Assembly (NCBI GenBank): GCA_016875395.1
Contig: VGRF01000005.1
Span: 1 to 64,000 of the forward strand
Source: Deltaproteobacteria bacterium
Lineage (GTDB): Bacteria > Myxococcota_A > UBA9160 > UBA6930
DNA: 64,000 bases
Direction: 5' to 3'
Shown piece by piece: positions 6,691-49,491 of the stretch. Numbering within the stretch: position 1 is the first letter of the stretch; each line of letters starts with the position of its first letter. A program made the position numbers and the translations under genes. The notes beneath the pieces are model-generated. The model saw only the letters and a program-made list of their open reading frames with translations. It did no database searches and was not told where the DNA came from.

Positions 6691-6727
6691 GCGCCGCCGC
6701 TGCGGCTCAACGCCGCAGCGGCGGCGC
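6691..6727. repeat. perfect 16-bp hairpin, 5-nt loop (module copy 1)
   Basis: GCGCCGCCGCTGCGGC (6691-6706) and its exact reverse complement (6712-6727) flank the loop TCAAC. It lies 164 bases after the GST stop, has no T-run, and precedes the repeat body by 40 bases. The same 16+5+16 geometry recurs at 23737 and 49451. Confidence 0.7.
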
Positions 6728-6767
6728 ACGTCCTCCCAACCCACGAGGTGGCACTGCCGCACAGCAA

Positions 6768-6995
6768 GGAGCGCGGGGCGGGACCGGGGGTCTGGCGCGC
6801 AGGGCCGTAGCCTGCGAGATCGCCGCACACCTCGATGTGCGTGCGCAAATCGGGCGCACGCATACGCCCAGATCCCCAGCCAACCGGCGCGCGAGCGGAA
6901 GCGCATAACCCACCCCGCTGCCCGCACATCTCGCCGGCTGCACTGCACCCAAGCGAAGGCCCGGAGTCGCCAGGGCCCCCTCCCGCCCCGCGCGG
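6768..6995 (+). repeat. structured intergenic repeat, copy 1
   Basis: This is about 228 bases, matching 23839-24065 at roughly 80% by eye in the same orientation. The ends pair with each other: GCGGGGCGGGA near 6774 with TCCCGCCCCGC near 6981-6991, continued by GGGGGTC/GGCCCCC and TGGCG/CGCCA around small bulges, then GGGCC/GGCCC. Inside is a 10-bp hairpin, GTGCGTGCGC with GCGCACGCAT (one wobble). It may be a structured RNA or a non-autonomous mobile element with terminal inverted repeats; I cannot choose. It ends 166 bases before the acyl-CoA dehydrogenase start. Confidence 0.7.
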
Positions 6996-7161
6996 CGTCC
7001 CGAGCGAGACGAAGTCCCCAGCAACCACCCCCCGCGCCAAGTTCCGCGCGCGAGGAGTCCGCGACCTCGCGCGCTCTTCGCCCCGGGCCCCGATGCACCG
7101 CAGCAACCGCCCGTACTACCGTCACTCCCTTCCAACAAATCCCTGGCACAGGAGCCGCGCC

Positions 7162-8391
<1,230 letters not shown>

Positions 8392-23736: not shown

Positions 23737-23773
23737 GTGAATCCAGGGCGCCTCGATGGCGCCCTGGATTCAC
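23737..23773. repeat. perfect 16-bp hairpin, loop TCGAT (module copy 2)
   Basis: GTGAATCCAGGGCGCC (23737-23752) and its exact reverse complement (23758-23773) flank TCGAT. It shares GTGA, GCGCC, the loop and the closing bases with the hairpin at 49451-49487, while six of the seven middle pairs differ yet remain paired. It lies 49 bases after the DUF1134 stop and may also act as a terminator; TTTC follows it on the minus strand. Confidence 0.7.
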
Positions 23774-23838: not shown

Positions 23839-24065
23839 GGAGCGCAGGGGCGGGACGGGGGGTCTGGCGCGGAGGGCCGTAGCCATCACCCGGGAGGCAC
23901 GCCTCGCTGCGCGTGCGCACGTCGGGCACCCGCGTACGCCCACACCTCCAGCCAACCGGCGCGCGGGCGGACGCGCATCACCCACCCGAATGCCCGCACC
24001 TCTCACCGGCTGCACTGCACCCAAGTGAAGGCCCGCAGCGCCACGGCCCCCTCCCGCCCCGAGCG
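23839..24065 (+). repeat. structured intergenic repeat, copy 2
   Basis: This is about 227 bases, homologous to 6768-6995. The terminal stem is conserved: GGGGCGGGA with TCCCGCCCC, GGGGGTC with GGCCCCC, TGGCGC with GCGCCA, GGGCC with GGCCC. The blocks GGGCCGTAGCC, CAGCCAACCGGCGCGCG and CCGGCTGCACTGCACCCAAG are nearly unchanged. It lies 65 bases after a 16-bp hairpin, as in copy 1. Confidence 0.7.
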
Positions 24066-24148
24066 GGACCACGAACGAGCCGCGTCTTCTCCGACTCCTC
24101 GGCGGCGAGTCTTCGACGCCGCCGATCCTCAGTAACAACTCGCTCCCG

Positions 24149-25159
24149 CTAAGCCCCGAACCCCCGCCTCAGCAGCATCAGCGTGTCGTACTCGAGCTCC
24201 GCCACGCGCCGCCCGGAAGCCGCGAGCACGATCGAGGGCACCGAGCCATCGAGGTGCTGCTTCGCTTGGCCCGCGAGCCCGAGGCCCCAGCGCAGCGTCC
24301 CCTGCGCCTTCCACCATTGAAACCGCGCCTCGTCCCACTCGCCGCCCGCTTCCTGATAGCCCGCGCGCATGTCGGCCACCGATCCGAAGCCGCCGACTTC
24401 GAGCGCGTCATTGCGGAAGCGCCACATGCGCTGCACGACCCAGCCGCAGTCCTCCATCGGATCGCCGAGGTGGCAGCCTTCCCAGTCGAGCGAGGCGCGC
24501 AGTCCGTCAGCGCCGACGATGAGGTTGCCGTTGCGGAAGTCGCCGTGAACGACGGTGATGCGCTTCGGCGCCGGCGGGATGTTGCGCTTCAGCCAGTTTA
24601 AGCAAAGCGTGAACGCGGGCGAAGGCTGCAACAACTCGTCGATCGAGCGGCGCGATACCGCGAGCGCGGTCTCGAGCGGATGCCCCGCTGGCCGCGGCAC
24701 GAGCGGGTGCGCTCTCGCGGCGTCGGCGGAGTGAAGGCGCGCGAGCGCGGCACCGCATTGCCGCGCCATCTTCGCGCCGAGGCCCGGCGTCTTCTCGACG
24801 AGGCGCAGCACTTGGCGCGGAATCGTCTCGCCCGCGATCTGCGTCGTGATGAAGAACGGTCCGCCGACACACGACGTGTCGCTGGTCGCGAAGTGCACGT
24901 GCGGCACCGGCATGCCCGCGGCCTCGGCGAGCTGCAGGTTCGAGGCCTCCACCTCGATCGGGTTCAGCTGCATCGCCGCGAACGGCACGATCGTGGCGAC
25001 GAGCTTCGTGCGCTCGCCGCCCGCGACCGCGTCGAACAGCATGTTGCGCCGCCGCGCGCCCGCCGAGGCCTGCGTCATGTTCTCGATCGCGACCTGCTTG
25101 CCCCACTGCTGCGAGAGGAACGCGGCGAGCCCCTTCGACGTCTCGTCGATCACGCTCAT
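24149..25159 (-). CDS. APH-like phosphotransferase family protein
   Basis: This 336-residue kinase-fold protein is related to aminoglycoside/choline phosphotransferases. The catalytic loop VVHGDFRNGNLIV and metal-binding LDWEGCHLGDP are near residues 208 and 228. In this branch, linked to acyl-CoA dehydrogenases, it may phosphorylate a small hydroxylated metabolite such as a hydroxyacyl-CoA (compare ACAD10/11), which is inference. ATGA overlap with the DUF6285 gene upstream shows a two-gene unit. Confidence 0.85.
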   Translation of the reverse strand: MSVIDETSKGLAAFLSQQWGKQVAIENMTQASAGARRRNMLFDAVAGGERTKLVATIVPFAAMQLNPIEVEASNLQLAEAAGMPVPHVHFATSDTSCVGGPFFITTQIAGETIPRQVLRLVEKTPGLGAKMARQCGAALARLHSADAARAHPLVPRPAGHPLETALAVSRRSIDELLQPSPAFTLCLNWLKRNIPPAPKRITVVHGDFRNGNLIVGADGLRASLDWEGCHLGDPMEDCGWVVQRMWRFRNDALEVGGFGSVADMRAGYQEAGGEWDEARFQWWKAQGTLRWGLGLAGQAKQHLDGSVPSIVLAASGRRVAELEYDTLMLLRRGFGA

Positions 25160-49177: not shown

Positions 49178-49412
49178 TCGGGGATTGAATCACAACGAGG
49201 GTTGGTGACGGGAGTCGATCGTTGCGGGGTTGCCTTGTTCTCTCGTTCACGGTGCCGCCGCGCGGTCCGGCGGGGGCTCGGCTGCGCTCGGCCGCGTGGG
49301 CGCGTCGGGGGATTGCCGTGCCGAGATCGTGCTTTCTGGCGCACTCATCCGAGTGTGCGCGCGCCCACGCCCGGGCACTCGCTCCGCGACCCCCGCCTCC
49401 CCGCGCGGCTCC

Positions 49413-49446
49413 TTGCTGTTACGTCTCCCCGCGTGTGTGTTGGGAG
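49413..49446 (-). repeat. partial third copy of the structured module
   Basis: On the minus strand, reading from the hairpin, CTCCCAACACACACG corresponds to CCTCCCAACCCACG of copy 1. ACAGCAAGGAGC (49413-49424) is identical to 6761-6772, then a GCGGGG..GGGGGTC block follows. Similarity fades beyond about 49385. Order (hairpin, linker, body start) matches the other copies. Confidence 0.5.
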
Positions 49447-49450
49447 AACC

Positions 49451-49491
49451 GTGACGCGGCTGCGCCATCGAGGCGCAGCCGCGTCACTTTT
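49451..49491 (+). terminator. perfect 16-bp hairpin plus TTTT
   Basis: GTGACGCGGCTGCGCC (49451-49466) and its exact complement (49472-49487) flank ATCGA and are followed by TTTTCTG. It looks like an intrinsic terminator, yet no plus-strand gene lies upstream of it. It could end a small RNA starting within the region, or be the hairpin part of the repeat module. Confidence 0.6.

Follow-up and report, generated by a model that had tools for sequence, protein, structure and literature searches.

The two similar intergenic stretches that a sequence-only reading had picked out in the window (the whole 64-kb stretch of DNA analysed) belong to a repeat family of which we catalogued 33 copies in this genome. 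The family fits best as an apparently undescribed, structured, lineage-specific interspersed repeat. Its broad kind, to which bcr repeats such as bcr1, ERIC, NEMIS, and other stem-loop repeats belong, is already known. We are highly confident that the element is a structured repeat family. As an overall explanation, we favor, with about even confidence, lineage-specific non-coding interspersed repeats that would be carried in 3′ UTRs as transcript-end modules.

The two stretches, here named A1 and A2, are alike over 229 nt (84%, E 1.5e-64), and the stems that had been proposed for them are present in both. Each is indeed accompanied by a 16-bp hairpin (6691-6727 and 23737-23773), which had been described as preceding the element, but on the minus strand it follows the rod, 40-65 nt downstream. 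Read on this strand, each copy is a GC-rich rod that a long terminal stem closes off, with an RTYGA-loop hairpin behind it. The two-copy repeat is thus real, but its extent had been understated: the family has at least 33 members, and a scan of the window for perfect hairpins, followed by reading of the sequence around the one at 49451-49487, revealed a third window copy, C11, diverged relative to the other two. The window contains only five perfect hairpins of at least 11 bp, against 0.8 in mononucleotide shuffles. The parts of the three copies are as follows.

6768-6995, minus strand: copy A1, subfamily A rod with long terminal stem (199.5 bits with covariance model R1, of which it is a seed)
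6691-6727, minus strand: A1 3′ hairpin, 16 bp perfect, minus-strand loop GTTGA, then TCTCTACC
6730-6739, minus strand: A1 spacer motif TTGGGAGGAC, directly before the 3′ hairpin and common to many copies
7046-7074, minus strand: A1 hairpin on the upstream side of the rod, loop TCGCGGACT, part of a wider genome-wide population of TCGAAGACTC-type hairpins
23839-24065, minus strand: copy A2, subfamily A rod with long terminal stem (192.9 bits with R1, of which it is a seed)
23737-23773, minus strand: A2 3′ hairpin, 16 bp perfect, minus-strand loop ATCGA, then TTTCGAG
24100-24124, minus strand: A2 hairpin on the upstream side of the rod, loop TCGAAGACT, right behind the stop of a phosphotransferase-family gene (24149-25159)
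49258-49408, plus strand: copy C11, subfamily C (109.2 bits with model R2, one of its seven seeds)
49440-49449, plus strand: C11 spacer motif TTGGGAGAAC, preceding the 3′ hairpin
49451-49487, plus strand: C11 3′ hairpin, 16 bp perfect, loop ATCGA, T-rich tail TTTTCTGT, with a terminator-like score

A DNA search of the genome returned four subfamily A copies, together with a fragmentary match immediately downstream of rpoD. We also read 1.64 Mb of the genome, window included, and scanned it for long inverted repeats and hairpins; inspection of these stretches brought out more rods, unlike in sequence and like in anatomy. The covariance-model search that had been suggested for this genome did yield further copies: model R2, built from seven subfamily C rods, detected 19 copies genome-wide at E 1e-9 or better, of which the seven seeds match by construction and twelve are new. 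Model R1, for subfamily A, had no significant matches beyond its four seeds. The 33 catalogued copies fall into six rod classes (C, 19; A, 4; B, 4; D, 3; E, 2; F, 1), and the rod interiors differ strongly between subfamilies. The search for B and D-F covered only those 1.64 Mb (36% of the genome), so a family total of about 50 copies is an extrapolation.

The core unit comprises a rod of about 50-240 nt with its terminal stem, a spacer that often carries TTGGGAGGA, and the RTYGA-loop hairpin. A hairpin with the loop [AGT]T[CT]G[AG] lies 10-87 nt after the rod in 31 of the 33 copies (one of the other two has a deleted tail, and one is diverged), compared with just 5.5% of random 150-nt windows containing any hairpin that scores 9 or more; hairpins and genes were called by custom scripts, with thresholds set after inspection of the first copies. 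In the 1.64-Mb scan, RTYGA was the commonest loop class among hairpins with 5-nt loops, and every RTYGA hairpin adjoined an element on inspection. Many units have a TCGAAGACT-type hairpin upstream, and a tandem pair with rods at C6:135214 and C6:135536 repeats, with a period of 322 nt, the series of TCGAAGACT-type hairpin, spacer, rod, spacer, and 3′ hairpin; tandem duplicates lie at loci L203/L229 and L232. The upstream TCGAAGACTC hairpin, although inside the tandem unit, was rejected as a defining feature, because in the 1.64 Mb it mostly stands without an element behind it. In the same 1.64 Mb, the word TCGAAGACTCG was counted 30 times, usually as a hairpin loop; some occurrences adjoin elements, and most do not. 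Downstream of the C-type units at L232 and L234, hexamer-like tracts, (TCGGAG)n, stand directly behind the 3′ hairpin.

The folding-energy excess is clear in A1 (z of -4.1 on the plus and -3.0 on the minus strand) and weak in A2 (-1.0 and -1.6), so that the case for a conserved fold is carried by covariation across copies and not by folding energy. In the 19 subfamily C copies, aligned by fitting to R2, whose structure derives from seven of the same sequences, 93.1% of the cells are paired; 26 pairs (shuffle mean, 9.6) and 64 cells (shuffle mean, 16.9) are changed on both sides, these cells not being independent events. Much of the change in the closing stem separates two lineages. None of 500 shuffles reached either observed value, and sliding the partners by 1-3 columns left 6-11 pairs changed on both sides. 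Of the 16 pairs in helix 1, 15 have a two-sided change in one copy or another. Subfamily A, with four sequences only, has 12 such pairs compared with 5.4 in shuffles. For the 3′ hairpins (n = 17), 235 of 238 positions are paired versus 53% with the arms swapped between copies, a control that demonstrates no more than arms differing from copy to copy and matching within each; since these hairpins, trimmed to 14 pairs, were selected as near-perfect, the 98.7% pairing is not a family average. About ten further copies have 3′ hairpins with internal mismatches.

Covariation therefore exceeds both shuffles and slid partners, as expected of a conserved fold at the level of RNA or DNA. Because the copies drift apart in sequence and keep their self-folding, the fold probably matters. 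The family amounts to a natural experiment, replicated well, in which structure is separated from sequence: stems change almost completely and pairing stays. No conserved reading frame was found: close copies differ by indels of 1-2 nt, and gene calls over the elements amount to two, both attributed to over-extended starts.

The conserved fold may act as RNA or as DNA. In the rods, scoring with ribosum gave 8 G-U against 13 A-C pairs on the assumed sense strand and 14 against 8 on the other, and scoring without it gave 6 against 5 and 8 against 3. These counts, for which mostly Watson-Crick pairs were used, give in our reading no evidence of RNA selection specific to one strand, and we do not take them as evidence against transcription. 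The 17 strongest 3′ hairpins contain one G-U among 238 cells. An element acting at the DNA level, whose palindromes would serve as cruciforms or single-stranded hairpins (putative transposase or recombinase substrates or binding sites) with incidental transcription, is unlikely in our judgment, though several features are in line with it. Arm complementarity would then be maintained by this DNA role or by template-switch correction, and G-U pairs are indeed not preferred over A-C in the rods and nearly absent from the strongest 3′ hairpins, changes in the stems often swap G-C for C-G with no wobble intermediate, and many dispersed copies occur in one genome with none found in 90 others. However, the copies have neither a conserved terminal sequence nor a target-duplication signal, their orientation is biased toward the 3′ side of genes, and no mobilising gene was found, the sole Y1 transposase detected being flanked by a different repeat. 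We consider improbable a new structured RNA class in which some 50 copies would have arisen by copying of the RNA gene itself, in the manner of a SINE, with subfamilies keeping the fold and replacing the stems.

We use the term lineage-specific for absence by models R1 and R2 outside the genus. In 90 further genomes of the class, R2 had no match at E 0.01 (searched with stricter filters; the same genus is not among them), and R1 gave one weak partial match in 60 relatives, also with stricter filters. The sequence-only reading had taken missing covariation together with missing copies in related genomes, or a conserved protein, as signs against a structured element; strong covariation was found, and no conserved protein, but the search of relatives, in which the genus itself was not represented, did not produce the further copies in the class that it had looked for. 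An exact motif scan of GTDB contigs gave 16 loci, none full-length by R1 (best partial match, 19.9 bits, E 0.02). A phage or plasmid origin was rejected, as subfamily A had no match in phages or plasmids and subfamily C none in plasmids. Against Rfam 15, nothing in the window reached a gathering score, and the four element stretches had only sub-threshold matches. The covariation, the further genomic copies, and the lack of an Rfam match support what had been proposed, an undescribed structured multi-copy element. We found no description of the family in the literature, most subscription papers lying outside that search.

The rod with its long closing stem, and some motif resemblance judged by eye only, recall 6S RNA. 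This candidate was rejected, as RF00013 has no match in this genome at E 10 and none in the window or the element stretches, and it recognised no 6S RNA in the window's family, although it does find candidates, unlike in sequence, in other families of the order. Given also the copy number and the rod size range of 50-240 nt, it is extremely improbable that the elements are divergent 6S paralogues. The RF00013 candidates in those other families (L031, L032, and L033) score 55, 41, and 28 bits, the first alone above the cut-off.

Some relatives carry their own rods. One genome (G010) has rods of about 110 nt in at least four copies, unrelated-looking to the present family, with the core GTCGTGCTCAGCTC...GAATTCCGCGCGCC conserved and arms that differ (L249, L251, L252, L253, and L149:14023-14135); a different rod follows its rpoD. 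In another (G013), the rod behind rpoD at L133 has CTGCGCTTTAC in common with subfamily D of this genome; it is part of an inverted arrangement close to the end of a contig and is possibly an assembly artefact. A separate side observation is the repeated palindrome GTGAGACATTTCGGC-CCG-GCCGAAATGTCTCAC at L107, L109, and L112.

A simple codon-usage gene caller placed 31 of the 33 copies beside an upstream gene, some of these genes being called far away, so that nearer ones may be missed. The upstream gene is co-directional in 23 of the 31, with 20 of the 23 copies at 25-120 nt from the stop, and divergent in the other 8; the one-sided binomial for the co-directional bias is about 0.005, with random orientation taken as half and two tandem pairs counted twice. 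None of the 33 copies convincingly overlaps a gene, and two overlaps are apparent, at A1 and C14. At A1, the acyl-CoA dehydrogenase domain runs from residue 7 counted from a start at 7162, and the overlap was therefore attributed to an over-extended start; we assume the same, by analogy, for C14. Tails behind the 3′ hairpins are only weakly T-rich. C11 ends in a terminator-like TTTTCT tail, and intrinsic-terminator scoring did not score the 3′ hairpins of A1 and A2 as terminators.

Placement, orientation, and hairpin form point, with slightly less than even confidence, to a 3′-end role of the unit. Copies would have spread by being mobilised or duplicated, and read-through from a gene would transcribe those lying 25-120 nt on its 3′ side as its 3′ UTR. 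The rod and the 3′ hairpin would then form a transcript-end module for termination, mRNA-end protection, or both, and selection, or palindrome correction at the DNA level, would keep the arms complementary. If the unit acts at transcript ends, the lineage has a module of its own behind many genes, with one copy behind rpoD.

A 3′ end made of a hairpin and a short T tail would also suit independently transcribed small RNA genes with their own terminators, acting in trans, as would the divergent upstream genes of A1 and C11 and the situation behind rpoD, where a hairpin with the tail TTTGCTTTGG, resembling an rpoD terminator, stands between gene and rod. We regard such genes as rather unlikely: a scan limited to the sigma-70-like type found no promoter-like site near the three window copies, a copy number of this order would be unusual for a trans-acting sRNA, and the rod interiors differ strongly between subfamilies.

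In comparison with MITEs, the repeats of the favored reading are non-coding, intergenic, multi-copy (33 copies), and in the range of about 70-300 bp. Terminal inverted repeats in the transposon sense, which had been offered for the element, were not supported: the arms are complementary within and different between copies, and no target duplication was detected. Shared words are not in excess at the rod ends (4.73 versus 4.52, sd 0.16) or in broad windows around the unit ends, which are not sharply defined (7.06 versus 6.77, sd 0.34). The element is thus not shown to be a MITE, as its terminal arms lack sequence conservation and a target duplication was not detected; if the element is mobile, it spreads without the usual conserved termini. 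Mobilisation in RAYT/REP fashion by the one Y1_Tnp found was rejected, as this gene is flanked by GCGCACCTGGGACGTACGTGCAC repeats and not by the element palindrome. This RAYT-like Y1 transposase gene is L248 (G000:C6:88585-88881), and its GCGCACCTGGGACGTACGTGCAC repeats are unrelated to the elements. Integron attC sites were set aside because the copies are dispersed behind housekeeping genes.

REP/RAYT palindromes (PMC3733652) are likewise high-copy and extragenic, but measure 20-40 nt against about 320 nt for the present units, and the RAYT-like gene of this genome is flanked by a different repeat, GCGCACCTGGGACGTACGTGCAC. ERIC, NEMIS/Correia, and MITE-like repeats (PMC2229807, PMC3733652) are similarly non-coding, of the 70-300 bp class, and intergenic, with long stems near genes, but in most of them the copies have terminal repeats in common and target duplications, and we found neither here. 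Repeated folding families, mostly intergenic, are common in bacteria (Cozzuto et al. 2008, PMC2267715); the likeness to these stem-loop families is one of kind only. Repeats such as bcr, ERIC, NEMIS, and other stem-loop repeats are often transcribed with neighbouring genes (PMC3446304, PMC2229807, PMC3733652, PMC2267715). The repeats bcr1-bcr18 of the Bacillus cereus group are group-specific and intergenic, some with conserved folds, and about half of the copies are transcribed in UTRs or operons (PMC3446304). The present family resembles them as a group-specific intergenic repeat with a conserved fold, but it belongs to an unrelated organism, its transcription is something we infer, and its arms and hairpin stems vary freely between copies and stay paired.
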